The notes under the pieces were generated by a model. That model searched no databases. It saw nothing but the letters and a program-made list of their open reading frames with translations, and was not told where the DNA came from. A program made the translations under genes and the position numbers. This document shows, in pieces, positions 6,943 to 52,700 of a DNA stretch of 62,137 nucleotides. Source of the DNA: a virus; the IMG/VR virus record IMGVR_UViG_3300020721_000009, positions 1-62,137 of that record. One strand, given 5' to 3'. Each line of letters begins with the position of its first letter. Within the stretch, counting starts at the first letter, position 1.

Positions 6943-9900
6943 TTAACCTTCAATTGCTAATATAAACGGAGTCATTTCTGCAAATAAACTTTTTTGGAAT
7001 GTTCTTCCGCTTAGAACACCCGTTGCTTGACTGATCACTAACCCTGGACCTATTCTAAAGTCTCCATTTTGGTCAGTAGATGTAAAAAATACTTTTCCAC
7101 CATCTAACATATTTACCTCATTTGGCTGATTAGGGTCAAGTCTTCCTACTTGTGGTAATGCACTATAATTTGTTCCAGCACCAACATATTCAAATAAGTA
7201 TCCAGATGCTGACATATAACTTCTTTGGTAAAAGTTAACGATAGAACCATCAGGAATTAAGTTATAATTTGTAACATTATCTTCTAATTGTACAATATGA
7301 TATGTGCCTGGCCGTGAATAATACGACAATCCAGAATATACTGCATTATAATTAACACCATTACCACTGATTAAATCATATGCCACATTAATACAAATTA
7401 ATTTTACATCTCTTCTACATTTACTTTTTTTATAATCTAATTGGTACCAATTGCTGCCGTATGAAGCAATTGATATTTGATTTTGAATATATGCATAAAT
7501 TTCTTCCACGCAGAACTCTAGATTAGCAAGTATTAATTGTGCAGCATCCCCAGCACCTTTTGTTGGAACACCTTTTGATACCAATGTTATTCCAATATGA
7601 CTTACTATTTCAGCATCACTATACTGATGTAAAGTTGATGTAAGATCTGATGTTATTGAATCGCTTCCTTTTAATATCGTAATAATGTTATCAATTAATC
7701 CAGTTCCAGGTATTGTAACACCACCAGATGTGCTAACACCTGTATAAATTAGATCAATAGCAGTTTGTCCGTCATATGCAACATTAAAATTTTGTGGTAC
7801 AATAGTTTGCAAACTAGTTATAGGAGCATTTTGAACTATACTTTGTAATAGTCCAGCTAAAATTTCTAATGATTGAATTTCTGGATTAGCACTATCAGAT
7901 GACCCATCTATTGATATTGGTGTAATTTGTTTTTGAGGTAGAATCAACCCACCTAAAACAATAGGTGTTATACCATCTGATTTTAATGATGGGTTATTTG
8001 ATATCTTACTTGATAAAATAGTATAATATGCATTACCACAAGAAAACAAAGTAAAAAAGCTAGGATTATTAATATCACCACCAGATTGTGTTATAGGCTT
8101 ACTTAAGTATACTGTTTGTGGACCTAAATCTGTAATGGTTGTTCCTGTTTGTAAATAACTAATATTTGTTACTAAATCTTTATCACTACCATATTGATCA
8201 TGCAAATATAATGCTTGTCCAATAAACATATCAGATACATCAATTCCAGTTATTGTTAAATCGCCTTCTGTAATAGTAGAAAAAGTAACTGTTGCTGTTA
8301 AGAATCCAGGTTTATTTTGTGCATTTACATAAGTTGGTTCAGGAATAACTTCCATCATTAACGAAATATGAGGTCTATATTGAGTATCAGGAACAAATAC
8401 ACACAACTGTTGTTTGTAAGGGAAAAATCCTGATGGATAATATTGGTTAACACCAAATGAATTAGATACCGGATCATATGCAAAACCTGATGGGTTATAT
8501 ATTGTTCCAGAGAATTCTCTAGGGCCATATCCTTTGGCAATCATACAATAAGTACCAAAGTTAGCATTAGAGTTTGTAATAGATGCAATACCACCGTTGT
8601 CAGCTTGAACTGCGATAGAACTAAAGATTGTAAATACTGATACTAACTGAACATATCCTTTATTTGTTACACGAACACCTCGTCCACCTTGGTTTACCTG
8701 TGTAAAAGCATCAGCAACAAATGATCTAACTGGCGAATTATCAGTAACAACATCACCATCAATTAGCATTCCACCCATTGCACCCCATGGATCACATTTT
8801 CTATTATTCCATCGTTCTGGTATTGTAGATTCTACTACTGGATAAACAGTAGTATAACCAAAATATAATGTAGAATTAATACCAATACCAACGGCTGGGT
8901 TATCTAATGTAATGTCATATATAGCATTTCCATTTCCATCTACTTGTATAAAATTACACGCAGTTACCTTAGTTGATTGTTTAACATTATCAGCACTAAG
9001 TCCAGTTGCATAAAATAATGATGTTCCAATATGCTTTTTATATGCAGCATGTCCATACGCAGGACCATGTTGTATAATATCAGTAAGAATATTAATATTT
9101 CGTTCAATGTATGGTATAGTTATTATACCATTAGACCATGCACTGTTAGTTGTTTGTTGTATTGATGGAGCCCATCCAGGGTTGTATAAAACATTACGAA
9201 CAATACTTTGCATTGCAGTTGAAATTTCATTAATTGCTGCTACGCATACTGTTGTTTCTAAATTAGTTAGGACAGATACATTATCCACATAATATGAAAC
9301 AGCCAAATCAAATGTTCTATAATTACCACCTAGTAATATATCTTGTGAAATAGCATCTATAATATAGCCAACATCTCTTTCACTTTTTGCACTATCATAT
9401 ACAAAAGTTGGGTATTGGTTACTAATAAATGAAGTAATATCGCTTTGAATATATGCTCTATTTGCTTGTAATAACAACTCACCACTGTCTAATCCGAATT
9501 CTGGACCAGTGCTATAATAAATTGTTGGCGTGTTTGCAATATCTAAAATTATTGATTTGATTATATCAATATTAGTATTAAATGGGGTAACTGCGATGTC
9601 TGCATTTTTTAATAATTCTGGTGTATATACTGGAATTCCAAATTTAGCAGTACCAGATCCAGCTCCTTTTCCAGTAGCAACGAAAACAGTTCCGCCGTTA
9701 TTATTAACTGCACCAATTAATCTAAAATCAGTATCAGCTGCATCAACGATTGTATATGTTCTACCAGTAATAAAATATCCAGCATTAACTGTAGTATTAT
9801 CAAATAAATCAATAACTGTACCAGTTCCGTTTGCAGCAGCAACAATACTTGCTACTAATGTTTTAATATAATCTAATCCATTGTTAGTTTGTAGCTCTTG

Positions 9901-24860: not shown

Positions 24861-25592
24861 TTACCAATCAACTATATTATTAATAGACCCTGATTTAAGT
24901 TTGGATTGAAATGGTACTTGTTGAACTTGTGGATTATCAGGTGTATCTTTTGTAGCTGCACCTGGTATTGACATTCCCAAAGTTTGATCCATTTTTTTAG
25001 ATATCCAGTCAACTGCTGCTACACTCCCATTCCCAAATACATCACCTATCACTGGGCTTGCAAGAAATCGTGCTATATAGTCGGCACCTTCCTTTGTGTT
25101 TACTACATAATTCATAAAATATAATTGAAGAGCGGTTGTTGATAATTTTGTTAGAAATGGAAACCACTTTGATAACAACCCAAACGTAAGCATATTGGCA
25201 GCACTGCCAACCATCTTAGATCCCATAGAACTTAATATCATAGTAGAAAGTGTTGATATAAATATCGCAGATCTTTGTTTACGATATGTTTGAAATGTTG
25301 CATCATTCCAATCACCTGCTTCAACATGTTCTATTCCTTGTTGTATTTCATCTACGTATTTGTTGATCTCATATCCAAATAATCCATATACACCAAGATT
25401 TTTAAGTATAGTAATACCAGAAGTTAATTGTTGTGATATGTTTTGTAATGGAGAAGCTATTTTAGCAGCACTGCTACCAAGTCCTACAGATTTTTTATTT
25501 TTTCCAATAAATTTTTTAATACCACCTAATATTGATGATTTAAGATTCTCATTTACAGGTTCATTTCTACTTATAATTTCATATACTTTCAT
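24861..25592 (-). CDS. Hydrophobic protein of unknown function (243 aa)
   Basis: I do not recognise the family. The first 35 residues are polar and basic (MKVYEIISRNEPVNENLK). The middle has Gly/Ala/Ser-rich hydrophobic stretches (about 128-195, including IFISTLSTMILSSMGSKMVG and LTFGLLSKWFPFLTKL) that could be amphipathic or membrane helices. The C-terminus is polar with a TPDNPQVQQVPF tail. A GATAAATA late promoter 23 bases upstream indicates late expression, and the hairpin-rich region lies just beyond it. Possible roles are an ejected internal virion protein or a membrane-active protein; the sequence does not decide. Confidence 0.6.
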   Translation of the reverse strand: MKVYEIISRNEPVNENLKSSILGGIKKFIGKNKKSVGLGSSAAKIASPLQNISQQLTSGITILKNLGVYGLFGYEINKYVDEIQQGIEHVEAGDWNDATFQTYRKQRSAIFISTLSTMILSSMGSKMVGSAANMLTFGLLSKWFPFLTKLSTTALQLYFMNYVVNTKEGADYIARFLASPVIGDVFGNGSVAAVDWISKKMDQTLGMSIPGAATKDTPDNPQVQQVPFQSKLKSGSINNIVDW

Positions 25593-25615
25593 TTTAAATA
25601 ATCCATTTAATAATA

Positions 25616-25623
25616 TATTTATC
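25616..25623 (-). promoter_or_regulatory. Late promoter variant GATAAATA for the 243-aa gene
   Basis: GATAAATA on the minus strand lies 23 bases before the ATG at 25592. It begins about 10 bases after the last hairpin of the structured region. Confidence 0.6.
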
Positions 25624-25633
25624 TATTATTATA

Positions 25634-26092
25634 AGGAGAACATAGTTCTCCTGTGGTTCACTTACGTTCACCACATTTCTCTTATTATCAAAGAGTAATT
25701 ATATGATAGATATTCATCTAGATTACGATTTACGAATTTTGCCCCCCGAAGGGAGCAAAAAAATAATTTCATCTGAGTTGACTTCATTACCTAGAGTTAC
25801 ACTAATTACAGAGGCGGTTGGCCGTTACCTCGAAGTGCGTTTTTGTTTCATTGTCCAACGGTGGTATTAGGAAAATACTCTAGTCATATTCCTAATACGT
25901 CTGGGAATTACCCAGTCTTTTAGCCTTTTTTCATTTGTTCAAGTTACCGAAATTGGTTTTACGTAAGGCGTATCCAATCATCATCCACAACACGAGGTGT
26001 GGGTAGTCAGTAAAGTCACTGCTTCTGCACAGTTGTTACGCTCAATGTGAAGTACATTCCATTGCTAACGGCACCTATCAATCTACCGGTGC
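25634..26092 (-). ncRNA. Candidate large structured RNA: chain of about ten hairpins
   Basis: About 530 bases between coding genes hold no convincing gene but are packed with inverted repeats and look more GC-rich than the surroundings. Read on the minus strand, the order is: GCACC/GGTGC (26092-26071); CAATGGAA/TTCACATTG with one bulge (26064-26043); alternative ACTG/CAGT stems (26033-26008); CCACA/TGTGG (26002-25985); ATTGG/CCAAT enclosing TACG/CGTA (25978-25952); CTGGG/CCCAG (25915-25901); a perfect 10-bp stem (25898-25864); GAGG-CGG/CCG-CCTC (25831-25811); a 10-bp stem capped by C(UUCG)G (25760-25737); GTGGT/ACCAC (25674-25653); and a perfect 8-bp stem (25652-25634). The UUCG stem pairs fully only on the minus strand (its G-U becomes a C-A mismatch on the plus strand). 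The RNA class is unknown. Confidence 0.5.
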
Positions 26093-26093
26093 T

Positions 26094-26102
26094 AGTATAT
26101 CA
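26094..26102 (-). promoter_or_regulatory. Possible extended -10 promoter at the edge of the structured region
   Basis: On the minus strand TGATATACT fits an extended -10 element (TGnTATAAT-like, one mismatch) directly before the first hairpin. No good -35 hexamer is visible at 16-18 bases. The expected start would fall inside the first hairpin arm, so the assignment is weak. Confidence 0.25.
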
Positions 26103-26122
26103 GAAGTGTTTTGCCTATTTGC

Positions 26123-26641
26123 CTAAATTGTGCCTTTGATTGACAAAGTTTTGAATTTTTTATTATTATGCTCAAAGAAAGCATCGTAGTCAAAAATTTG
26201 CCAAGTACCATGCTTAATAGAATGGTAAGAGAAGTATGGTAAGTTGTGCCAGTAAGTTGCCTGTGGTACTGCTATGAATTTGCCTTTTCGTGTTATTTTA
26301 AACATTAAAATGTTTATATCACCGGTATCGGTTACTTCAATCAATTGAGATAGCCAAGTTTCTAATTGTTTACATTCACCTTGGACTAATTGATGAAATG
26401 GAAAATCTGCATATGATTTGCATTCACAATTAAAATGTTTCCATTTATCTGGTGGGATAATATCCCCTTTCATCATTCTTATTTGACCATCTTGTAGAAA
26501 TTCTTTACGTATTGAGTTTTTACCTCCCACGTATGCACCCGACGATGGAACTCGAATGAACTTTTCTTTGTAAAGTGAAGAGAGATGATTTGCTACATCT
26601 CTCTCCCAAGTGTTGCCTTTAGTTTTTGATTTGCTACTCAT
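26123..26641 (-). CDS. PD-(D/E)XK-like nuclease, Holliday-junction-resolvase-like (172 aa)
   Basis: The N-terminus reads KTKGNTWERDVANHLSSLY, then RVPSSGAYVGG, then MKGDIIPPDKWKHFNCECKS. This order resembles PD-(D/E)XK nucleases such as archaeal Hjc-type resolvases: a helix with K-G-x(3)-ER, a P-SSG loop, an Asp in GDI, and E-x-K on the next strand. The catalytic set would be Glu of WERD, Asp of KGDI and Glu/Lys of ECK. I chose the ATG at 26641; a longer frame overlaps the upstream gene by about 100 bases. It lies in the recombination module after gp46/gp47, which fits resolution or trimming of branched DNA. The exact substrate is an inference. Confidence 0.6.
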   Translation of the reverse strand: MSSKSKTKGNTWERDVANHLSSLYKEKFIRVPSSGAYVGGKNSIRKEFLQDGQIRMMKGDIIPPDKWKHFNCECKSYADFPFHQLVQGECKQLETWLSQLIEVTDTGDINILMFKITRKGKFIAVPQATYWHNLPYFSYHSIKHGTWQIFDYDAFFEHNNKKFKTLSIKGTI

Positions 26642-26645
26642 TTGG

Positions 26646-26999
26646 TTAGTTATCTTTATGAGAACCGACCGTACCCTGAATCTGTAAAAGTTTTCTTTGT
26701 TTTTTAGTTGTTGATTTAAATGTTCTGTCTTTATTAGTTTTATCACTAATAGTTTTGATCCATTCTAAAATAAATTTTCTTTGTTCAATGGTAAGTTTAT
26801 TGATTTCACTTAACCAATACCTTGCATCTTGCCCGGAACGTTTTGTTCCTGCTTGAATCCAATGTAAATTTGCTTTATAATACTGTTGAAAAGCATGAAT
26901 TAGCTTATCATGTATATCGTTATCAGTTGGAATTTGATCCAACTGCCAACTATAAATTCTTGGTGCGTAATCTTGTTTTGGCTCTACTTTCTTAGGCAT
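26646..26999 (-). CDS. Unknown protein upstream of the nuclease (117 aa)
   Basis: I do not recognise this protein. It is charged and helical, with aromatic residues in the first half (YAPRIYSWQLDQIPTDNDIH and HAFQQYYKANLHWIQAG) and a very basic C-terminus (TTKKQRKLLQIQGT). That pattern would fit a nucleic-acid-binding protein. It ends 4 bases before the nuclease start, so the two probably form a pair. The ATG directly follows a perfect TATAAT -10 box and has no ribosome binding site. A transcript from that promoter would begin inside the gene, and no later Met exists. Translation therefore probably relies on read-through mRNA from gp46. Confidence 0.55.
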   Translation of the reverse strand: MPKKVEPKQDYAPRIYSWQLDQIPTDNDIHDKLIHAFQQYYKANLHWIQAGTKRSGQDARYWLSEINKLTIEQRKFILEWIKTISDKTNKDRTFKSTTKKQRKLLQIQGTVGSHKDN

Positions 27000-27028
27000 A
27001 TTATACTATAACTTTTCTGATTTGTCAA
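27000..27028 (-). promoter_or_regulatory. Perfect sigma70-type promoter at the end of the endonuclease gene
   Basis: On the minus strand TTGACA (27028-27023) and TATAAT (27005-27000) are separated by exactly 17 bases. The -35 box and spacer are coding for the last residues of the homing endonuclease. The -10 box directly abuts the ATG of the 117-aa gene. Confidence 0.7.
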
Positions 27029-27719
27029 CTAATTTTTTATTAAATTTACATTTTTCACCGTGCCATCTAGCAAAATTTCCAATAGATACTGATTTATTAC
27101 AATATTCACAAGTTTTTGGTGGTAACAGATTTATTCTATCTGCAACCCACGGTTTTCCAAATGAAGGATTTTTTTCTTTTTTTAATCCTACTTTTGGGTT
27201 TCCTGTAAGTGCCTCACTAATTCGTTTATTATGCTCTGGTGGTCTAGATTTTGCATATTTTTTAACACCTTCTTTTTGCTTTTGGATTGTTTCAGCGTTA
27301 TGTGTTTTTCCATAATGTGGTGATAGTAATCCAGTTTTTCCAAACATTGGATTTTTATCACCTTTTCTCGCATTACTTTTCTTTTGTCTAGTTTCTAAGG
27401 ATTCTTTATAACCTAATTTATTACCTGGATCAAATTTAGCATTGCTTCTATTATAACTCATCACATTATTTTTTGCATCTAGGTAAACTAGATATGATGT
27501 TTCTAATTCTCTAATATATTTTGCTGATCCAATTACTAATATATCATACACCCAATCTTGTCTATTTTCTACAATCATTGGTTTTACTATTTTACTAGAA
27601 CAAATGTATTTTTCATGTAACAGAGGAGTCCATCCTTTTTGGGTTTTAGAACCAATGTACCACATTCCAGTAGAAAGTTGTGTCCATTTATACAAATATG
27701 GTAAGGTATCAATTTTCAT
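27006..27719 (-). CDS. GIY-YIG homing endonuclease after gp46 (237 aa)
   Basis: The GIY-YIG motif appears as YLYKW and WYIGS, followed by YICSSKIVKPMI and IRELETSYL with the catalytic Glu. NUMOD3-like motifs follow (KNPMFGKTG, SPHYGKTHNAETIQKQKEG, KNPSFGKPW). The C-terminus has CEYC-x(8)-N-x(3)-RWHGEKC, the same zinc-knuckle-like motif as the HNH enzyme at 13064-13822. The start at 27719 (MKIDTLPYLYKW) overlaps the gp46 stop by 11 bases; an upstream in-frame ATG lies inside gp46 and is less likely. It is a paralogue of the enzyme at 16202-16867. Its last codons contain a complete sigma70 -35 box and spacer. Confidence 0.88.
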   Translation of the reverse strand: MKIDTLPYLYKWTQLSTGMWYIGSKTQKGWTPLLHEKYICSSKIVKPMIVENRQDWVYDILVIGSAKYIRELETSYLVYLDAKNNVMSYNRSNAKFDPGNKLGYKESLETRQKKSNARKGDKNPMFGKTGLLSPHYGKTHNAETIQKQKEGVKKYAKSRPPEHNKRISEALTGNPKVGLKKEKNPSFGKPWVADRINLLPPKTCEYCNKSVSIGNFARWHGEKCKFNKKLVDKSEKL

Positions 27720-29487
27720 TATATTCTGGATATTCATATTGAGTAAAACCATTTTCTTTAACTACTTTAAGTATATTATTAACTCTTCCCGCTAATTCGT
27801 CTTTATGACTAATTAAAAAGATATTTTTATTACGTTCTCGTGCAATATTTTTCATAATACTTAACGCATTCTCAACACCACTTGCATCTAAGCCGTTGTC
27901 AACTAATTCATCAATAAATAATACATTTATACCTTGATATAAACTTTCCCATACATCACGAAATGCAAAACTTAAACTGAGAATAACTCTAGTCATCTCA
28001 CCGCGACTGAGATTAAAAAAATCCAATTCTTGTCCTAGTTGCATAATTTCTACAGTTAAATCATTTTGAAATATAACTGTATGTGGTAAACCCATTTTAT
28101 CAATATAATAAGTTAGTCTATTATTTAAGTATGCTAGGTTTTGGTCAATTATTTTTTTACGTATAAAACTATCTTTATTTGTTAATAATTTTAACAAAAA
28201 TTCTTGATGATCTTTTAATGAAGTATAGTCATTTATTATACTCCAATTTATTGGTTGTAATGCTTCACTTTTTAATTCAATAATTTGGTCATCATATGGA
28301 TTTATTTCATTAGATTTACTAGTTAATTGTGCATGTAAAGTAATCAATGTATTACGATGTGTTAATGCTTCTTCTAATGTTGGATAGTACGTTGATGGTT
28401 TTTCAGGTAAATCACCTAACTTCCATAATTGACTAATAACACTTTCATATTCATTTGAAACTTTATCAAGATATTGTTGTGATTCTTCAACTGTATTTTT
28501 ACTAGATTCTAACATATCTTCATGTGTATGATCTTGTAGTTCTTGAGCACATGCTGGGCATATTTTTGATTCTACAACTGCTACATGATTAATATAATTA
28601 TCATGATTTTTATTTGCTTGTTCAATTGCTGCTTCTAAGGTTGCTTTTTCTTTATTTAAACTGCTAATTTTTGTAGAAAGTTCATAGTATGATTTTAATT
28701 CATTATGCGCTAATAATTCTGCAGTCAAATCTAATCCTTCCAAATTTACAATAGATTCACCAAGTTTTTGAAGTTCATTATTATGTTTCAAATTCCAAGA
28801 ACGTTGACTCATTGTTAATGAATCAATACTTTGTTTAATTTTTTCATTGGATTTTTTCATTGCTTCAATATTTGCATTTTCTTGAAAAATCAACTCTTTT
28901 GTTTGCTTAATTTCTTTACTAAGAATTTCTGCTTTTTCACTTAGCAAAGTGATACCAAGTAATTGCTCAATTATTTCACGCTGATCACCCGCCCTCATTG
29001 ATAAGAATGGGTCAGTATAAGTATTCAATGCTACTATATGTTTGAACATATTATGACTCATACCAAATAATGTTTCAATATCTTTTTGAGTATCTTTTGA
29101 TTCACCTTGGCTATCACTTTCTTCAACTTTGGATGGATCTGCAAGATTTATAAAATTAAAAATAGCAGGTTTTCTACCTCTTTCAATTTTATAATCAACT
29201 CCATCTTTTGAAAATGTTAGTGTAACTAACATATTTTTATTGTTAATCTTGTTTATAAGATTATCTTTTTTAATATTAGTTAGTGCTATTCCATATAATG
29301 CAAAACTCAATGCATTGACGATAGTTGTTTTTCCAGTGCCATTTCTTGAACCGGAATCATCACCACCTTGATCTAGATTTTCACCTAATACTAATGTTAA
29401 ATTTTCTTGATTAAATGTTACAGCCTGTGTTTGGTTGCCAACACTCATGAAATTTTTTACTGTTAATTGTTTGACTTCTATGCTCAT
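27709..29487 (-). CDS. gp46: Recombination endonuclease subunit gp46, Rad50/SbcC-like (592 aa)
   Basis: This SMC-family ATPase partners with gp47 for DNA end resection and recombination-dependent replication. Walker A is SRNGTGKTT (near residue 50). A long coiled coil is broken by a zinc hook, CPAC, near 310. The ABC signature region is LSRGEMTRVILSLSFAF, Walker B is VLFIDELVDNGLD, and the H-loop is LISHKDEL. The length is close to T4 gp46 (560 aa). The start overlaps the gp47 stop in an ATGA arrangement, as expected for tightly coupled subunits. Confidence 0.95.
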   Translation of the reverse strand: MSIEVKQLTVKNFMSVGNQTQAVTFNQENLTLVLGENLDQGGDDSGSRNGTGKTTIVNALSFALYGIALTNIKKDNLINKINNKNMLVTLTFSKDGVDYKIERGRKPAIFNFINLADPSKVEESDSQGESKDTQKDIETLFGMSHNMFKHIVALNTYTDPFLSMRAGDQREIIEQLLGITLLSEKAEILSKEIKQTKELIFQENANIEAMKKSNEKIKQSIDSLTMSQRSWNLKHNNELQKLGESIVNLEGLDLTAELLAHNELKSYYELSTKISSLNKEKATLEAAIEQANKNHDNYINHVAVVESKICPACAQELQDHTHEDMLESSKNTVEESQQYLDKVSNEYESVISQLWKLGDLPEKPSTYYPTLEEALTHRNTLITLHAQLTSKSNEINPYDDQIIELKSEALQPINWSIINDYTSLKDHQEFLLKLLTNKDSFIRKKIIDQNLAYLNNRLTYYIDKMGLPHTVIFQNDLTVEIMQLGQELDFFNLSRGEMTRVILSLSFAFRDVWESLYQGINVLFIDELVDNGLDASGVENALSIMKNIARERNKNIFLISHKDELAGRVNNILKVVKENGFTQYEYPEYNEN

Positions 29488-40000: not shown

Positions 40001-40743
40001 AGTTAAATGCAACTGGTACATTAACTGCCACACTCGATTATAAGGTTTATATTGGTAGAGATAACTTAAAGTTCCAATATACACATTCTGCAGACTATGA
40101 TTCACGTATTGATCCAGGTACCAGTAATATTATTGATGTTTATGTATTAATGAATGAATATGATATTGTTTTTAGACAATGGTTAAATGGGTCTATTTCT
40201 ACAAAACCATTACCACCTAGTTCAAACGAATTATACAATACTCTTTCACCAAATTTAAATTTAATAAAATCTATATCTGATGAAATTATATATCACCCAG
40301 TTTCATATACGGTTTTATTTGGTAGTACAGCAATACCAGAATTACAAGCAACTTTTAAAGTAATTAAAAATCCAGAACAGGTTGTTTCTGATAATGATAT
40401 TAAATCACGTGTTATTACAGCAATTAATCAGTTCTTTGCAATTGATAATTGGAATTTTGGCGATTATTTTTATTTTACGGAACTATCAACATATGTAATC
40501 AATAGTTTAGCTCCTGATATTGTTAGCTTTGTAATAGTTCCTACACAATCAGGATTAAATTTTGGTAGTTTATTTGAAATAACTGCAAATAGTGACCAAT
40601 TATTTATAAGTGGTGCCACTGTAAATGATATTGAGATTATATCAGGCATTACTACAACTAACATTAAATCAGTAAGTGGTACATCAACCATTTCTACTAA
40701 TTCTAACCAATCTATAACTAGTTCACCATACGGGAGTTTATAA
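37084..40743 (+). CDS. gp6: Baseplate wedge protein, gp6 family, enlarged (1219 aa)
   Basis: The N-terminus (YQSFRNADFQSYDFENLRRT, ESSEYLALIDLIAFLGQNIA, DLNARENFLELAERRDSILR) and the segment with FGDGTFGNLPQGSFRVYYRI are typical of gp6 / baseplate-J proteins. The C-terminal YHPVSYTVLFGSTAIP to NWNFGDYFYFTELSTYVINS is also family-like. gp6 forms the wedge backbone that rearranges on contraction. It is nearly twice T4 gp6 (660 aa). The extra length lies between about 480 and 950 and is beta-rich, suggesting inserted surface domains. It overlaps the next start by one base (TAATG). Confidence 0.9.
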   Translation: MSATDRENRLLVAENWTKIYQSFRNADFQSYDFENLRRTMVNYLRQNYPEDFNDYIESSEYLALIDLIAFLGQNIAFRVDLNARENFLELAERRDSILRLSRVISYNAKRNIPASGLLKFTSVQTTESVIDSNGRNLANQVITWNDVSNQNWYDQFIRIMNAAMPSTQQFGNAADNATIYGIPTSQYRFQAANTDVPVYSFNKVVSGTSMNFEITSATFKGESFIYEEPPSVGNSVACIYRDDGQGAGSLSSGFFFNFTQGSLNTGTFTINQPSSNESIDINTPNINNNDVWLYQLDMSGVEQTLWTQVPNLNGNNVIYNSINNNVNSIYGAITKAGDEVSLTFGDGTFGNLPQGSFRVYYRISNGLSYVINTQDIRNVSVDIPYISALGQLHTLTVTLALTTSVSNSSPSESNTSIKTNAPQVYYTQNRMITGEDYNISPLSANQQVLKVLSVNRTSSGISRYFDLVDPTSKYSSTNLFADDGVIYTENYTPTVNFSYITKDDITRVIYNTIFDILKHTDLRNFYYLNFIKDTASDGFDASWNQVSTDVTTSAGTITVSSLTSPDLQYITIGTLLKFSAPLGYYFDTNLQNKLVFGNATSTGSSYYVWAEVVNVNNGTYTLNKIIPSSFTTTEVINNSSVTVEHPVSISKIIPKFVNTLVSTTTISTMIGLIYANELFGLTYSVKSSSWEIIKNSNLNTIDPFGIGYQGDNSNKNIDASWLLLFTPNNGSYIVTSRETKYIFESDKQLRFYYDGTTKIYDSQSNRVVNDLIKILNINSNPSVISTIATGNAGSYSITITSGIGIFSGMLVEGTGINTNTLVTDLSVSSNGIVTLTLNKSVTYNIISSLISFTIPGVSTFTNDIIWQISSEYIGSDGYIDTKKVVVSFLDSDNNGIVDDPELFDRVVAPNINTLTKYIVEQKYSISAGQDDYRYVDNTSNIVIILASQTMIGNTSIYTVGQYFYFIDTGIVKQLNATGTLTATLDYKVYIGRDNLKFQYTHSADYDSRIDPGTSNIIDVYVLMNEYDIVFRQWLNGSISTKPLPPSSNELYNTLSPNLNLIKSISDEIIYHPVSYTVLFGSTAIPELQATFKVIKNPEQVVSDNDIKSRVITAINQFFAIDNWNFGDYFYFTELSTYVINSLAPDIVSFVIVPTQSGLNFGSLFEITANSDQLFISGATVNDIEIISGITTTNIKSVSGTSTISTNSNQSITSSPYGSL

Positions 40744-43700
40744 TGACAGATAGCGTTGATCCAAATGCAACTAATAATGTAGCATCTACTTTTTTACCAA
40801 GATTATACAGAACTGATGCTAATAATAAGTTTTTACAAGCTACCGTTGAACAAATGTCTCAACAAGGGACTGTAACAAAATTAAATGGATATATAGGAAG
40901 ACAAACCGCAAAAGCAACTATTGGTAGTGATGTTTTTGTTAAAGCTGCTGATTCAGATAGACAAAATTATCAATTAGAACCATCAGTTGTCATTAATGAT
41001 CAAGAAGGTAATAATACATATTTTAAAGATTATCAAGATTATATTAATAGAATAGAACTATTTGGTGGGAATGTTTCAGATCATCAACGATTAAATTCAG
41101 AAGAGTTTTATAGCTGGGATCCACAAATTAACTGGGATAAATTTGTAAATTTTCAAAATTATTATTGGTTAACACCATCTGTAATTAATATTGGTGGTGA
41201 ACAAACTGGGGTGATTAGTACATTTAGTGTTAATACTAAAACTATTGGTAATACCACAGAATATGTATTCACACCAAATGGTATAAGTGAAAATCCTGAA
41301 ATCACATTATATAAAGGACAAACATATATATTTAAAATTAATAGTCCTAGTCAACCATTTAGTATAAAAACCAATCGATCAATAGGTTCTGCTGATAGAT
41401 ATTTAAGTGGTATTTCTGGATATGCTGTGCAAGATGGTACTATAACATTTACCGTAGGAAATGATGCACCTAGTACTTTATTTTATCAGAGTGAAATTGA
41501 CTTAAATGCTGGTGGTATTTTTAATATAAAAGCGATTTCACAAAATACTATAATTGATATAGAACAAGAAATTTTAGGAAAATCTACTTATAAATTAACA
41601 AATGGATATAACTTAAGTAATGGAATGTTAGTAGCATTTACTGGAAATGTTACACCAGCAAGTTATAGCACTGGAAATTATTATGTAGAAGGAGTTGGCT
41701 CATCAATACAATTAATCCCATCTACTTATATTAATAACACATCAAATTTACATGAGTATATATTGATTAATAAAGCTAGTGATGATAAGAACCCATGGAG
41801 TAGAGCAAATAGATGGGTTCATACTGATATCTTAAATATAAGTGATCAGATAAACAATACATCATCTAGTTTAGACCAAGCACACCGAGCTATTAGACCA
41901 ATTATTGAATTTTCAGCAAACTTAAAATTGTTTAATTTTGGTACAAATTGGTTAATGGATATTAATTTGTTAGATGTTTACACTACTGATGCTTTTTCAA
42001 CCGCTGAGGGATCGGCTGGTTTCTATATTGATAATCAATTAGTAAGTGATGGACAACTTGTTATTTTTACAAATGAATTAGATGAATTAGTAAGAAATAA
42101 TATTTATAGAATAGTATACATTAATTCTAAAATACATCTTGAATTAGTAACAACCCCAGAAATAAATCAAGTAATATATGTAAAAGATGGCGCCAATAAT
42201 ATGTCAAAATATTTATGGTATAATGGCATTACATGGGTTACTGCACAACAAAAAAATGGTATTAACAATGCCCCGTTATTTGACGTAGTTGATGATAATT
42301 TAGTAAGTATTAGCGACGTATCGGTTTACAATGGATCTAGTTTTAAAGGAACTTATATATTTTCTTATAAAGTCGGAACTGGCACTGTCGATACTGAGTT
42401 AAAATTTCCATTATCATATAGAAATATTAATAACATTGGTGATATTATATTTAATTTTGATTTTGTTAATGATACTTTTGATTATAAAGAAACAACTCAA
42501 ATTGTTACTAAGAATATCAGTAAAGGCTATTTGGTATTAAAAGATTATGTTAATAATAATGTTTACACAAATGGGTGGAAAAAATCAAATATTACTACAG
42601 TACAAGCTGGTATAAGAGTATATAAAAATTCTAAAATTACAAACAATTTTAATATTGATATTTTTGATGATATTTCAAATTTATCTGATTTAGTGGTTCG
42701 CATTTATATAAATGGTGAAAGATTACAACAGTATACTACAACAAACAAACCAAATTGGCTATTAGTAAATACCCCATTATACAAACAATTAGTATTGATA
42801 AATTCTTCAACTAATGTAACGGTGACTGCAACTGATTCTGCTACTAATTTAATAACAATTAGCGATACTACTAAACTTACTATTGGACAAAAGATTGTTT
42901 TTGGTTCAGATTTTGGTAATTTAATATCTGATACTATTTATTATGTATCTTCCATACCTAGTATAACTGAATTTACTGTATCTAAATCATTAACTGGTGC
43001 TGATATTTTATTATCAACAGAAATTGTGCAGGTTCCGTTATATTTTTTATCTGATATTCAATTAAATGACATATTAACAATAAAAACATTTTCATCTCAG
43101 CCAATAAACAAAAATGGATATTATGAAATTCCAAATAATTTACAAAATAATCCATTAAATGGAATTATTAAAAATTTTACATTAGGTGAAGTAATTAATC
43201 ATGTTGATTCAATAGTTGATAATTTATCATCTATATTTGTTGGAGTTTTTCCAGGATTAAGTAATCTGCGTGATTTGGGTGACATTTCACCATTTGGTAC
43301 AAAATTTGTTAAACATAGTGGACCATCTGGAATATCATTATATCATCTTACTTCTGATACTGTAAATATTACAAAAGCTATAGAACAAAGCAGAGATGAT
43401 TATAATAAGTTTAAAAGAAATTTTATTTCAGTTGCTGAAACACTTGGTGTAGATACTGATACTAAAAATCACGTAGATTTAATATTACAAAATATTACTA
43501 AAAATATACCAAATACCGCACCATATTATTTTAGTGATATGGCGCCGTTTGGTGCTAGTATTAAAACAACACATATAATTGCTGGGTTTACAAGTAACCA
43601 ATTTGCATTAAACACACCATTTGATACAACTGTTTTATCAAATCAAGCAGTTGGGGTATATGTAAACGATGTTCAACTAATTGTTAATCATGAATATATT

Positions 43701-46700
43701 TTTAATATACAAGGATTTATAGTAATTACTATACCTTTGGTAAATGGTGATGAAGTAGCCATATATGAATATGAAAACACTGATGGCTGTTGTATTCCTG
43801 AAACACCGTCAAAACTTGGAATTTGGCCAATCAGTGATCCAAAAATATATAAAGATACATCATTTGTCACTCCACAATGGATTATTCAGGGACATGATGG
43901 CAGTCAAGTATTAGCATATGGAACATATGACGATAATGGAACTCCTGATTATAGAGATGCATTAATATTAGAATTAGAAAAAAGAATATACAATAATATA
44001 AAAATAAGTTATGATAAAAGTATCTTTAATATCGATGATATTGTCCCAAGATATACAGAAACTTTAAATTATAGCTTAGCTGAATTCAATCAAGTATTGG
44101 CACCATCATTTTATAAATGGTCAGCATTAGTTGACGTTGATTTTACTAATCCAATACAATATGATTCAACAAATCCATTTACATTTAATTTTACTGGTCA
44201 TTCTGCGCCTGATGGTAGATTAATTCCAGGATATTGGAGAGGAATATATAAATGGATATTAGATACAGAACGCCCACATATTTGTCCTTGGGAAATTTTA
44301 GGAATAACTGATAAACCAACATGGTGGGATACCGTATATGGACCAGCTCCGTATACATCTGATAATTTAATAATGTGGGAAGATATTAGTAATGGAATAT
44401 TAAATGCACCTGGCGCACCAACATTATTAAAACAATATATTAAACCATTTTTGATGGATCATATTCCAGTAGATGAACATGGTAATTTAATAAATCCAAT
44501 TGATTCTGGATTATCGCAAGGTATTGTTACTGATGCTGTTAAAAGTAATTATATTTTTGGAGATGTTGGTCCGGTTGAAAGCGCGTGGAGAAGAAGTTCT
44601 CATTATCCATTTAGTGTTATTTTAACATCAATTTTACTAACACCATCTAAAACATTGGGTATTATTCTAGATAGATCTAGGATTTCTAAGAATTTAACTG
44701 GACAATTAGTATATAATAACACTGGATTACATATTTCACCAAGTGATGTAATATTACCAAGCATATATGCAAGTTCTAAACGAGTACAAACTGCTGGTGT
44801 TATTAATTATGTTATAAATTATATTATAAGTGGTGATCTAACAACATATTCACAATATGCTTATGACTTATCAAATATTTCTTATAAACTTGGATATAGA
44901 ATTGGTGGATTTACAAGTAAAACTCAATTTAATTTAATATTAGATTCAAAATCACCGTTAACTACTGGAAATGTTTTTGTTCCACAAGATGATTATTCAA
45001 TTATTTTAAACACATCTTCTCCTACTAAGAAAATTACATATAGTGGTGTTATTATAACAAAACTTTATAATGGATATTCTGTAAAAGGATATAGTAAAAC
45101 ACAGCCATATTTTGTTTATTACCCTTGGAGTCAATCTGGACGTTCAATAAATATTGGTGGTATATCTGAAAATTTTGTAATATGGACTAGCGGAAAATCA
45201 TATAATAAAGGACAATTAGTAAAATTTGGAAATGATTATTTTAGGGCAACCAGTTCAATTAATTCTGAATTATCATTTTCTGAATCAAATTATCAAAAAT
45301 TGTCATCGTTACCCATTATTGGTGGACGAACTGCGTTCTTAAGAAAAGCATGGGATAAAACTAATCCAATAACAATTCCATATAATACAACATTTGAAAC
45401 AATACAAGATGTTGTTGATTTTTTAATTAGTTATGGAGAGTGGTTAAAAGATCAAGGTTTTATTTTTGATGAGTTTAATACAAATTTAAATCAAGTTTCA
45501 AATTGGGAAACTAGTGCAAAAGAATTTATGTTTTGGACAACCCAAAACTGGTCTGCTGGACAAGATATTTGGACAGATTGGCTACCAAATACATTAATTA
45601 CTTATAATAGTATAGTAAAATATGAAGATAATTATTATAGAGCAATACGAAATGTAGAAGAATCATCAGTTTTTCACAATGAATTTTATGAAAAACTAGA
45701 TGGGTTAAGTAATATAGGAAGTTCTGTAATTTCACTTAGTCCTGCAGCTGCGGCTATTACGTTTTCTGCATCATTGAATGTTGTTGATAATATTACTAAT
45801 AAATTTAATGACTATGAGATGTTTAGAGTAGATGGATATCCTATCCCAGCACAATTCTTAAATTCATCAAGAAACAAAAATTTAGTTACTTATAGACCAG
45901 CTAATGATGATGGAATATATAATGCAAGTTTCTACATTGTGCAAAAAGAACAAGTAGTAATAATCAATAATACCACGATGTTTAACGATTTAATTTATGA
46001 TCCAACAAGTGGTTATAAACAAGATAGAATTAAAGTATCTGCATATGTAACTAGCGGCTGGTATGGTGGTTTTGACACTCCTGGGTTTATATTTGATGAA
46101 GCTAAAATTACTAAATGGGTAGCATGGAAAGATTATACATTAGGTGATATAGTTCAGTATCAATCATTTTATTATAGTGCTGATTCATTTATAACTGGAT
46201 CTGAAACATTTGATACAACACAATGGACAAGATTATCGACACGACCAACTTCTAAGATTTTACCAAATTGGACTAACATAGCTACTCAATTTACAGATTT
46301 CTATAGATTAGATGATGAACATTTTGATAGTGCACAACAAACAATGGCACAACATTTAATTGGATATCAAAAACGTCAATATCTTAATAATATCATTCAA
46401 GATGATGTTAGTGAATTTAAATTTTACCAAGGTATGATTGCTGAAAAAGGTACACAAAACGTTTTCAATAAATTGTTTGGTGTGTTAACTTTAGATAATA
46501 AAGAAAGTTTGACATTCTATGAAGAATGGGCAGTTCGAGTTGGCCAATATGGGGCTAGTTCAGCATTTGCTGAAGTGGAATTTGTATTGCCTGAAGAAAA
46601 GTTTAAAAATAATCCACAAGTTATAGAATTAGTTGACAAAAAGACACAGAATACTGGTTATTCTATACAACAAATACCATCAGATATATATGTAAAACCA

Positions 46701-49700
46701 GCTGAATATGAATCAAATTTATTTCCAATTGTTTCATCAAGTAAGAAATTCTTAAGACCAGGTGGATATGTTAGATCTAACCAGGTATCATTGACTTTAA
46801 AATATATTTCTGAAATCTTAACACAAGATATTACTCAATTTACAGAAGGTGATTATGTTTGGTGTACATTTGAAAATACAGAATGGAACATTTATAGATA
46901 TACTGCAACTAATTTTGCTGTTACTAATGCAACATATGATAGTAACCAACTTACTATTGATGTAACTGGAAATACTTCTATTGCATCTGGTGATTATATT
47001 GGGATATCAAATGTTACAAAATTTTCAGGATTTTATAAAGTAATATCATATGCGAATAATATTTTAATTGTATCAGCACCTGGTATAACTGTAGCATCAC
47101 CATTTACTGAACAAAATACAATTAGAATTTATCATTTAACATCACAACGTGCAACAACTATTGATGATGCTAATTCTATATTACATTATCCATTAAAATC
47201 TAATGAATTATTATGGACTGATGATAATGGTTTTGGAAAATGGGCAACATGGGAATACAATTCTGTGTATAGTGGTAGATTATTACCAAATCCGTATCCA
47301 ACATCACAAGTTAATTATGGTAGGGCAATCGCATCTGATAGTACCGGAAGTAATGTAGTAATTTCAACTGCATTAGGTGGAATCTATGTTTATACTACAT
47401 ATAAAACTTCTCTGTTATCATTGCATCAAGTTTTAACTAACCCATTTATATCTTTGGATGATCAAAACCCATTGAGTGCATTTGGAACAGTTGTTAGTAT
47501 ATCTAATGATGGCACATGGATAGCTGTTGGCTCGCCAGAAAGTAGTAATGTATGTACTGAATTGAGTAATATTAGTGTAACATTTGATAATAGTATGATA
47601 CCAGTAAATAATACTTCTGTTACTTTTGATAATAATCTTGCTTTTATAACTGCTGGATCATTTATTGTTGGTAAAACATATACTATTACATTACTCGGAA
47701 CAACTGACTTTACTGCAATTGGAGCAACCTCAAATGTGGTTGGACAGATATTTATTGCTACTGGTGCTGGGACAGGAGATGGTGCCGCTGTTGATACTTC
47801 ACCTGTTACTGCAGGAGTCTTTATAGTAGGTGCTACTTATACTATCATTTCACTTGGCAGTGCACCATCTACCGATTTTACATTAATAGGTGCATCAAAA
47901 AATGCAATTGGTATAGTATTTGTTGCAACGGGTATTGGCTCAGGTAATGGAACTGCTGTAAGAAATAGTATTAAAAACACTTCTGAATTAGTGTATACAT
48001 CTATTTCTGGTACAAATTCATCTTTAATTAACCAAGGTGTTGTATCATTATATAAAATGGATAAAACCAAAAGTTACTATCATGTAGTGACATTTGTAAG
48101 TCCACAACCAGATATGAATGAATACTTTGGGTCCAGTTTGGAATTTGGTCAAAACTGTTTGTACATTGGTGCGTCAGGTGGAAATAATAATACTGGAAAA
48201 GTTTATAAAATTAATTATGAGATGACTGTACATGCGTCATCCTATTATGAGCCATATAATAGCACTGGAACTACACTAAATTTGGTTAGCGCACCAGGTA
48301 TAGATGTTTTTGCAATGTATGTAATTGGAAATGGGTTTACTAGTAATCAACAAGTAGTACAGTTAATACCAAATAATATTAGTAATATTCCAACATTGAT
48401 TTTATCATCAAATCCAGATACACAACCTTCTGGGTTATTACAATTTGTAACATATAACTGGCACTACAATTTGACTTCATCATTAACTGGGATTAATTCT
48501 GGTGATAACTTTGGGGCAAACATAAAAGTAAGTAATAATGAAACTTTGATAATATCATCAGTTGGTGCAGTATCTGTATATAATTCTGGAACTTTAATTC
48601 AAACTATAACTGGACAAACTAATTCATTTGGAAATAGTATTGCTATATCAACATTTGGTGATTATATAGCAGTTTCTGATAGTTTATATTCTGGGATAAC
48701 ATATTCTCATCAAGGTAGTGTTCAAGTTTATAAACAAACAGCATCATCTTATGCGTTATATCAACAAATTGATAATTTATATCCATCAATAAATTCAGAA
48801 TTTGGTACAAATATTGAATTTATGGATAATTATGACACACTTGTTATTCATAGTAAATATGAAAATTCAGTATCTAGTATGATTGATGTTTATGATATAT
48901 ATAATACAAAGTGGATTTATAGTGAAAGATTGCCATTGTTAATTGACACAGCTGGTACATTTATTACAGGTAATTCATATACTATTATGACTGTTGGAAC
49001 AACTGATTTTACATTAATTGGAGCATCAAGCAATGCAGTTGGTATAACATTTATTGCATCTAGTAGTGCAACTTCATTAAATATATTAGCTAATGGTGAA
49101 GGATATGTAAATGGACAATATGATAATATTCAATTAACCTATCTAAGTGGGACAACTGCTACAATATATCCAATTGTTAATATAACAGTTACTAATAATT
49201 TAGTTTCAACTATTACATTTGTTAGCAATGGATATGGATTTGTTGATAATACAACTATATTAACAGCTCAACTAGGAATGGTTGGTGCTGGATTTGAAGT
49301 TAATATTGGTATTCCATCTATGGTTGGGTCTGGTACCGGCACTGCGGTTATTAATATAGAGAATGATAGTAATAAATTAGGATTTTGTATATCATTAAAT
49401 AAAATATTAATAGGAACACCATATGAATATGATATTAATTCACCTAGATCTGGCTTAATATTTGAATATATAAAAGCTAGCGATGCTTATAGCTGGACAC
49501 AAAAACATCAAGAAATTGATAAGCCAGATATTAATAAGATTAAACAAACATTTTTATATAACAAACAAAAAAATGAATTAATAAGTTATTTAGATGTAAT
49601 AGATCCATTACAAGGTAAAATTGCTGGAATAGCTGAACAGGAATTAAGTTATAAAACTTTCTATGATCCTGCCATATATTCAATTGGTGATTCATCTGTA

Positions 49701-52700
49701 AATGTTGATGAAAGTATAGCATGGACTACTAACCAAGTTGGTAAATTATGGTGGGATGTGCGAACAGCCAAATTCATTGAAAGTTATGATTCTGATATTA
49801 CATATAGAAGTAGCACTTGGAATACATTAGTACATGGTGCATCTATAGACATATATGAATGGGTGGAAACTAATTTGTTGCCATCAGTATGGGATACCCA
49901 AGCGGATACCGATGCTGGACTATCATTGAATATAAGTGGTAAATCATTATATGGTGATACTTGCTATTGTATTAAAAAATATTATGATAACGTAAGTAAA
50001 ACAATAAAAAATACATATTACTTTTGGGTTAAAAATAAAGCAATAGTTCCAAATATTCCTGGAAGATATACCTCTGCACAGAATATATCAAGTTTAATAA
50101 CAAGCCCAGTAAAAAATGCATACAAATATATTGCGATTACTAGTCAAAATACATTTGAAGTGGCAAATGTTGGACAAGTTTTATCAAATAATGATGTTAT
50201 ATTATCTATTCAGTATTGGTTAATAGATAAAACAGATCAAAATATTCATGCACAGTGGAAAATTATTAGTAATGATCAATCAACAATTTTACCAAACACT
50301 ATAGAACAAAAATGGTTTGATAGTCTATGTGGTAGTGATAATTTTGGTAACTTAGTTCCAGATACCTCATTGCCATTAAAATTAAAATATGGTGTTGAAA
50401 ACAGACCACGCCAATCTATGTTTGTGAATAGATTTGAAGCTATTAAAGAACTTGTAGAACAAGCAAATACTATTTTACTACAAAATCAAATTGCTAGTAC
50501 AAGAAATTTAGAAGGTATATCACAGTATGATCAAGCACCAAGCTTAACATCTGGATTATATGATATTGTAATAAACACCGATGCTGAATTACAATTTAAT
50601 TCGGCTAGTTCTTATAAAGTACCAGTATTATCGGCAGTAATTATCGATGGTAAAATATCAAGTGTAACAATCTTATCTACTGGATTTGGATATGTTATAT
50701 CACCAGTAATTAAGGTTATTGGAACGGGTGTTGATGCCGTATTAAAAGCTATTCTTAATACAAAAGGGCAGATTGTAGATGTTAAAGTTATAAATGGTGG
50801 AAATGGTTATGACTATACCACTAAATTACAAACAAGAAATTTTGCTGCATTAGTACTTAGTGATTCTCAATCAAATGATACATGGAGTATATATTCATTC
50901 AATTTAGAAACAAATTCTTGGAGCAGAATTTTAAGTAAATCATATGATGCTAGTGAATTTTGGTATTATGTTGATTGGTATGAAATTGGATATAACCAAT
51001 TTACGGCTATTGATTATTCTGTTAGTATATTTGCTGATTTACAGGGCATTTCTACAAATGTTAATGATACAATTAAAGTTAGATTAGGTAATAATGGCGA
51101 ATGGATATTATTAAAACGTTATAGTTTGATAGATTCATTAGATTGGACTAAGACATATAAAGTAGTAGGTATTCAAAATGGAACTATTCAATTAAATAGC
51201 AAATTGTATGATTCGCCACAATATGATGGAACATTATATGATAGCATTGGGTATGATAACAACTCATCCACCGAATTGCGAATTATTTTAAATGCATTTA
51301 AAACAGATATTTTTATAAATGAATTAAAAACTGATTACTTGAATTTATTTTTTAATAGTGTTCGATATGCACACAATGAACAAAAATATATAGATTGGAT
51401 TTTTAAATCTAGTTTTGTAAAGGCAAAACATAATGTAGGAACATTAAACCAACCAGTTACTTTTAAAAATGATAATTTAGTTGATTTTGAAAATTATGTA
51501 GCTGAAGTAAAACCATATAGAACTAAAGTTAGAGAATATATAAGTTCATATACAAATATTGAATCTGGTAATATTCTATCAACAGATTTTGATTTACCAC
51601 CAATCTATGCACAAGGTGGAACTAATGTTATAGAAGCATATTTAGTAGATAATAAAATAGTAGTATATAACACTGAAGTTCAGCAATATCCATGGAAAAG
51701 TTGGTATGATAATGCAGGATTTTCTATTAAATCTATTAAAATTATTAATGGTGGATATGGATATATAACTGCCCCAAAAATAACAGTAGTACCAGATAAT
51801 GGTGCAGTATTAAATGCGCAAATAGATTTTCTTGGTAGAGTTACTAGTATAGAAATAGTATCAGGTGGGAAAGGATTTTTATCAACACCAACTCTGATAA
51901 TAGAACAACCACCATTTGGACAAGGTGTTACTGCGTGTGTTTATATTGGTAATAGTTTAGTTAGAACAAATAGAATAAATCTTAAATTTGATAGAATAAC
52001 ACACAATTATTATATTAATAAATTGCAAGAAGTTGAATCATTTACTGCAATTGCTAATCAGACTACATTTGAATTATTATGGTCCCCTGATATTAAGATA
52101 GGATATTCTTCTGTTACTGTAAATAACTTGCCAATTACTCCTGATTCATATTCATTAAGTATTGAAACATTAAAATACAATGAATATAACGGTATAATAT
52201 ATGATAAGTATTATGGAACTCTAACGTTACATGATGCAGTGCAAGCAAATGATATAGTATCTATAACATACGTAAAAGATGCATCAATATTAAATGCAGC
52301 TGATAGAATTAATTTTTACTACAATCCATCAACGAATAATCTAGGGAAAGATTTAACTCAATTAATGACAGGTATAGATTATGGTGGAGTTCTAATTGAT
52401 GGATTATCGTTTGCAATAAATCATGGATGGGATAGTTTACCATATTTATCTGATAGATGGGATAGCTATGATCCAACATTTACTGATAACAAAATTGTTG
52501 TAGAAGTTTCTGGAACACATACATTTAAACTTTCATATATTCCAACTGTTGGAACTATAATAAATGTATATATGAATGGTGTTCGTATAGATGACTTGCA
52601 TTTTGATACTATTGACCAATTAAATACACATGCAGTAATGACTTCACCAATAATAGGGCTAATTTCATCTACTGAAGTGACAATTAATATAGATAGAAGT

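Follow-up and report, generated by a model that had tools for sequence, protein, structure and literature searches.

The pRNA of phi29-like phages provides a precedent for a structural RNA of phages that acts in a machine. For two other large phage RNAs, GOLLD and ROOL, we know of no function. Both assemble into RNA nanocages (PMC12286853). Phage ICP1 and the PLE satellites likewise make abundant large non-coding RNAs, which have been described as separate transcripts (PMC7567579). The Polynucleobacter-1 RNA (Rfam RF01718) was reported in 2010 in Burkholderiales and fresh water as an RNA of unknown function for which cis-regulation was thought probable (PMC2864571); the table of that paper carries a 'y' in its column for cis-regulation (Weinberg et al. 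2010). A literature search found no further paper naming this RNA.

A structured RNA in a gene-free gap

The window, the whole 62,137-base stretch analysed here, is a virus record from a T4-like myovirus with genes for the late sigma factor gp55, gp47, gp46, baseplate hub, baseplate wedge and tail fibres. An ORF of 4859 codons lies between its baseplate and tail genes (40743-55322). A gap of 530 bases (25593-26122) separates a 243-aa ORF (24861-25592) from a nuclease ORF (26123-26746). By the ORF list this is, as a sequence-only reading had claimed, the sole gap of more than 300 bases in the window, a seeming second one at the window end being an open ORF. The gap contains no complete ORF of more than 55 aa, and no decayed coding gene was recognised there. 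GC content reaches ~0.41-0.42 at 25800-26099 against ~0.25-0.35 in the surroundings, in agreement with the GC enrichment noted earlier, and the inverted repeats of the gap proved real on re-check.

The minus strand from 25634 to 26110 folds at -120.7 kcal/mol, in excess of shuffled sequences (-104.6 +/- 5.3; z -3.0; 0 of 100 shuffles equally good). Since the plus strand folds nearly as well (z -2.7), folding energy leaves the strand undecided. The minus strand, already suspected to be the transcript, is fixed by the match to RF01718 and by the excess of G-U over A-C combinations (414 against 68 cells) at consensus pairs of the homologue alignment.

An Rfam scan of the whole window returned RF01718 as its sole match, covering the full model (1-141) on the minus strand at 26097-25941 with 59.2 bits (E 4.6e-10), above the gathering cut-off of 37 bits that defines membership. 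Outside this part no meaningful Rfam score was obtained in the gap; the GOLLD and ROOL models gave no match at gathering or at E up to 1, and ARAGORN and Rfam revealed neither a tmRNA nor a self-splicing intron. The proposal of a large structured minus-strand RNA distinct from GOLLD, ROOL, tmRNA and introns is thus borne out. Its novelty holds in part: the RNA is not wholly new because its 5′ third is recognised by RF01718, whereas the rest is absent from Rfam. There is little doubt that the gap encodes a genuine, independent structured RNA.

Extent and architecture of the RNA

R2, a covariance model of the 3′ domain built from 29 phage sequences with the window excluded, has a single match in the 62 kb (minus strand, 25783-25634; 61.1 bits, E 4.8e-9). 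This phage-trained model also detects the 3′ domain in island copies, with E 2.7e-5 for L102 and ~1e-4 to 5e-4 for L074, L080 and L088; E-values of R2 and of R1, the 5′-domain model, are rough by the tool's own statement. The 5′ and 3′ domains therefore travel together. The stretch first proposed (25634-26092) spans the RNA almost exactly (~25634-26108): its left boundary coincides with the base at which the R2 match ends, and its right boundary falls ~15 bases short, the 5′ strand of P1 lying at 26106-26101. At the place of the late promoter noted just past the RNA, the minus strand has the late-promoter-like GATAAATA (25623-25616), ~11 bases beyond the last hairpin; the motif ATAAATA is 16-fold enriched upstream of the ORFs of the window.

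The features of the RNA are collected in Table 1. The ACCGCC core is near-invariant, being found in 125 of the 130 collected copies, and some of the 5 exceptions are truncated contigs. At one locus (L081), the X2-P13 linker contains an insertion of tandem ATCAAATGTG-type repeats and therefore tolerates length change. Two candidate features were rejected. The conserved upstream CTACTGATA was ruled out as a promoter, since it forms the 5′ strand of P1, whose covarying partner is the P4 loop. A long helix predicted by RNAalifold from the phage-only set (GGUUGCGCUG/CAGCGUGACC) was set aside; it is nearly invariant and conflicts with a local hairpin that covaries elsewhere.

Table 1. Features of the RNA and its immediate downstream flank (window coordinates; columns are those of the homologue alignments)
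Feature	Position	Strand	Basis or remark
Whole structured RNA, ~475 nt	25634..26108	-	5′- and 3′-domain models, covariation; ends placed by conservation
5′ domain (RF01718 1-141)	25941..26097	-	59.2 bits
3′ domain (X1, hairpin E, X2, P13, P14)	25634..25783	-	model R2; absent from Rfam
P1, 5′ strand CUUCUG	26101..26106	-	pseudoknot with CAGAAG 26027-26022 in P4 loop; columns 6/84 (clade 1), 8/90 with 45/45 paired (other homologues)
P1, 3′ strand CAGAAG	26022..26027	-	in loop of hairpin P4
P5, UUACUGA 26013-26007 / UCGGUAA 25950-25944	25944..26013	-	encloses P6 and P7; columns 97/151, 99/149 (clade 1), 106/157, 107/156 (other homologues)
P7, GAUUGG/CCAAUU	25951..25979	-	columns 123/144, 125/142
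PK2 candidate, P7 loop GCCUU with AAGGC	25969-25965 with 25927-25923	-	homologue inspection only; not in the significant list
P8, CUGGG/CCCAG	25901..25915	-	columns 183/197
P9, GUAUUAGGA/UCCUAAUAC	25864..25898	-	11/13 pairs covary
PK3, P9 apical CUAGAGU with ACUCUAG	25883-25877 with 25797-25791	-	columns 217/291
PK4, GUUGG 25859-25855 with CCAAC 25821-25817	25817..25859	-	columns 238/268 (42/42 paired), 240/266
P10 CACU/AGUG and P11 GAGG/CCUC around ACCGCC core	25800..25837	-	columns 250/286, 251/285, 252/284
Repeat X1, ACUCA-GAUGAA	25768..25778	-	flanks hairpin E
Hairpin E, UUUUGCUCCC-UUCG-GGGGGCAAAA	25737..25760	-	the UUCG-capped stem of the sequence-only reading
Repeat X2, AUCUA-GAUGAA	25713..25723	-	flanks hairpin E
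P13, UGUGGU/ACCACA	25652..25675	-	UGA/GAA-type internal loop
P14, terminal hairpin AGGAGAAC/GUUCUCCU	25634..25652	-	columns 441/456, 442/455
T4-type late-promoter-like GATAAATA	25616..25623	-	for the 243-aa gene; outside the RNA

Covariation along the RNA

Covariation was assessed in 87 non-redundant homologues, comprising 42 clade-1 phages (the window included) and 45 others, by a custom R-scape-like procedure. A G-test with average-product correction was compared with 40 alignments simulated along a FastTree tree using parsimony substitution counts, and the E-values are those of this home-made test. Significant pairs were obtained in both sets. In clade 1, 16 pairs pass at E 0.05, of which 14 are Watson-Crick and paired in 37-42 of ~42 sequences; the remaining two are the X1/X2 identity pair discussed below and one neighbour of a true pair. 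All seven significant pairs of the second set are Watson-Crick. Significant pairs fall in P1, P2, P4, P5, P7, P8, P10, P14, a stem of the central domain, PK3 and PK4, so that the supported helices extend over the full length of the RNA.

P1 is the most important covarying helix. Its 5′ strand, which pairs with the P4 loop, falls before the start of the Rfam model, and this pseudoknot is missed by the model. In the window the helix is CUUCUG/CAGAAG. Many clade-1 phages have ACGGU/GCCGU, most clade-2 phages share CUACUG/CAGUAG with many islands, and other islands have CUACCG/CGGUAG.

Direct repeats X1 and X2

X1 and X2 follow a different rule, namely identity. In clade 1, columns 312/364 hold A/A in 26 sequences and G/G in 14, with no exception in 40, a degree of covariation reached in 0 of 40 simulated alignments; the three column pairs next to them show identities only. 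The X sequence changes with lineage (GAUAAU, GAUGAU, GCAUAAU, GGUCAA, GUGUCAAG, GCGAAAG, AUCAAAAG and others), and the two copies track each other. Matches between X1 and X2 average 7.06 bases within a sequence against 5.73 across sequences, a difference reached in 0 of 2000 permutations that ignore relatedness. Exceptions to the identity occur outside clade 1, for example in L103.

A third partner inside the RNA was considered and dropped, because no other column of the alignment covaries with X1/X2 and no complement of X occurs at a constant place within the RNA. Extra copies of X are not enriched in the island loci either (2.17 vs 1.87). Identity, as opposed to complementarity, suggests that X1 and X2 are read either by an external partner or by other, symmetric copies of the RNA. 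The X sequences of islands differ from those of phages, which gives no support to one phage partner that reads X in both.

A conserved locus in freshwater T4-like phages

Degenerate 5′-domain patterns revealed carriers among viral contigs, the phage contigs being mostly fragments. In a species-level genome set they revealed two carriers, a MAG labelled Nitrospira lenta and Polynucleobacter sp. MWH-HuK1. A separate scan for the 3′ core motif (AAAAGGNNANNGCNNNACCGCC) added 33 loci, all of which have the 5′ domain too. A third route led through the neighbouring protein gp46: 80 loci were fetched, and 62 extend at least 1.5 kb beyond gp46. R1 detects the RNA in 44 of these 62, in some weakly, and R2 in 16/16 tested of the other 18, giving 60/62 in total. 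Since these are the loci most closely related to the query, the result covers this group and not all T4-like phages; nearly all sampled members of this freshwater group carry the RNA at one locus. Nucleotide similarity yielded no homologue in a cultured phage or plasmid.

Gene order is the same throughout the phages: gp47, gp46, small ORFs, a nuclease-like gene, the RNA, and convergent gp51-like and gp26-like genes. The window keeps it, with a NUMOD3 homing endonuclease, a 117-aa ORF, a RusA/PDDEXK-type nuclease, the RNA and the 243-aa gene. The NUMOD3 gene (27006-27752) comes after gp46 and before the small genes that lead up to the RNA; in relatives a different nuclease-like gene takes its place. 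The upstream stop codon is almost adjacent to P1 in most clade-1 phages, so the RNA is probably cut from the gp47-gp46 transcript or ends it. The late gene behind the RNA (24861-25592 in the window, and in clade-1 loci) varies widely and often begins with an MKVYEII-like sequence, which may be a cleaved targeting peptide; no relatives of the 243-aa protein were confirmed.

Two cultured or named phages have gene-poor stretches in comparable surroundings. Pseudomonas phage PA5oct (NC_071039.1, L327:8064-9500) has one of ~1.4 kb at the equivalent locus, the order in the PA5oct group of cultured jumbo phages being gp46, a RusA-like gene, the gap and the baseplate hub. Within the PA5oct gap, 8440-9380 has a folding z of -5.6 and closes with a UGAG..CGAA hairpin and a terminal hairpin like those of the gap RNA family; some of its parts have matches at four places per genome. 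It is possibly a distant relative that could be worked on in the laboratory. In Sinorhizobium phage Phosso, a hairpin-rich gap of one kilobase (L328:8407-9422) lies behind a Holliday junction resolvase near gp46. Neither gap is matched by R1, R2 or Rfam.

Diverged copies in Polynucleobacter islands

Genomes of the genus Polynucleobacter contain 24 diverged copies above the cut-off, in 19 of 186 genomes, and one further copy below it. A cassette that recurs in 22 island loci has a divergent DUF6641 gene ahead of the RNA. In many cases a variable gene sits just behind the 3′ end of the RNA; then follow genes for a small tyrosine recombinase, two unknown proteins, an AAA protein resembling clamp loaders, and an integrase. 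The small recombinase is found in 21 of the 22 analysed loci and integrase family F5 in 19. A sequence TAAATA lies within ~110 bases upstream of the RNA in 24/24 island copies, compared with 4% of random 90-base stretches from the same loci, and the exact T4 late sequence TATAAATA is present upstream in 4 of the 24. The AAA protein has a weak likeness to the phage clamp loader (27% over 186 residues), and the clamp-loader profile also matches bacterial clamp loaders. DUF6641 and the small recombinase were not found in the phage records, which are mostly fragments. As integrated elements with an integrase, a defining trait of satellites, the islands look like phage satellites. The late-promoter core TAAATA and the clamp-loader-like AAA protein are only indirect signs that a helper phage may mobilise them.

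The element family of this genus (L111-L113, L119-L137) combines a conserved cassette with variable cargo directly behind the RNA. Eight cargo proteins gave no Pfam match; one cargo gene is AbiEi-like by PADLOC (L111:7275-7826), and L113 carries a DNA methyltransferase. L113 (G013 contig 2) is a Polynucleobacter-type island in the MAG labelled Nitrospira lenta, and represents either a misbinned contig or wide transfer. A third, very diverged RNA lineage (25.8 bits in RF01718) lies beside a DUF6641-type gene in L137 and L106, where the remainder of the cassette was not found.

Proposed role and alternative explanations

The locus holds a conserved minus-strand RNA of defined structure and synteny that phages share with integrase-bearing islands. 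The best explanation overall, and a probable one, is a trans-acting, large pseudoknotted non-coding RNA of ~475 nt, for which a scaffold role is proposed. In the phage, where it stands directly behind the gp47-gp46-nuclease genes, the RNA would be co-transcribed with them and processed. It is predicted to fold into a 5′ domain, a central pseudoknotted ACCGCC core and a 3′ domain with the X-flanked hairpin E and two end hairpins, and would persist in infected cells as a stable scaffold. X1 and X2 may then offer two equivalent single-stranded sites at which one partner, most probably a protein, could bind as two copies; this two-site mechanism is put forward tentatively, at somewhat less than an even chance. 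The islands, with a diverged copy under a phage-late-type promoter, may keep it by virtue of using the same phage process, be it replication, packaging or assembly. More speculative again is the idea of a new large ornate RNA class that forms a shared phage-satellite interface, with two identity-covarying sites recognised by one co-evolving partner or by symmetric RNA copies.

A cis-regulatory leader or riboswitch of the downstream gene would accord with the 'y' in the 2010 table and with the next gene lying on the same strand in the window and in 36/41 scored clade-1 loci. However, the ATAAATA late-promoter motif separates RNA and gene in 25 of these 36 same-strand cases, the next gene is convergent in 18/18 scored clade-2 loci and 28/29 pattern-found loci, and the islands are mixed (10 same, 13 opposite). 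Downstream orientation being inconsistent, a leader role is not general and there is no general cis target, which makes this explanation very unlikely. Hardly more probable is an element that acts as DNA, such as a replication origin or a packaging or recombination site whose inverted and direct repeats would count at the DNA level. Satellites often share DNA recognition sites with their helpers, direct repeats do flank a hairpin, and a tyrosine recombinase and variable cargo lie just downstream of the island RNA; yet the G-U excess reflects strand-specific RNA pairing, and long-range pseudoknots covary.

The size, pseudoknots and phage origin of the RNA also resemble those of the nanocage-forming GOLLD and ROOL (PMC12286853), and identity covariation with no internal third partner would fit symmetric contacts. 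An RNA-only homo-oligomer, a cage or ring in which X1 and X2 serve as intermolecular contacts, is nonetheless unlikely: no sequence or model match links the RNA to GOLLD or ROOL, and X1-X2 base pairing between two copies does not explain the pattern because identical sequences are not complementary. It is scarcely credible that the 141-nt RF01718 element is the only RNA and the rest unrelated intergenic DNA or a decayed gene. Rfam does model the 5′ part alone, but the 3′ domain is found independently in the window and islands, covariation runs throughout and no ORF is present, so that this view is already contradicted by the covariation and the R2 match.

An orphan Rfam family of 141 nt proves to be the leading part of a far larger RNA found in phages and in mobile Polynucleobacter islands. 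An RNA kept both by phages and by possible parasites of phages would help to show which process it serves, and the unusual constraint seen in the identity-covarying repeats offers a direct route to the partner.

Comparison with known systems

The RNA shares with GOLLD and ROOL a large size, pseudoknots and carriage by phages or mobile elements. It differs from them in length (~475 nt against ~660-800 nt), in matching neither Rfam model and in its surroundings: GOLLD and ROOL often lie near tRNA genes, whereas ARAGORN finds no tRNA in the window or in seven loci. By analogy it may work like GOLLD and ROOL while being a member of neither. The pRNA of phi29-like phages, compared by Rfam scan alone, differs in size and fold. 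As with ICP1 and PLE, a phage and integrated, probable satellites each have prominent non-coding RNAs, predicted here from sequence; in contrast to the separate RNAs of that system, phage and islands carry homologues of one RNA.

With Polynucleobacter-1 the RNA shares the full 141-nt model, the same 5′ domain and the freshwater setting. The cis-regulatory position of the 2010 description, which is outside the Rfam definition, does not apply, clade-2 neighbours being convergent and island neighbours mixed. Compared with RF01718, the RNA is more than three times longer, with a 5′ pseudoknot strand beyond the model, a 3′ domain and at least two further covarying pseudoknots, and it sits in T4-like phages and integrase-bearing islands where it is no general leader. 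The gap RNA is a full-length, phage-borne redefinition of RF01718.
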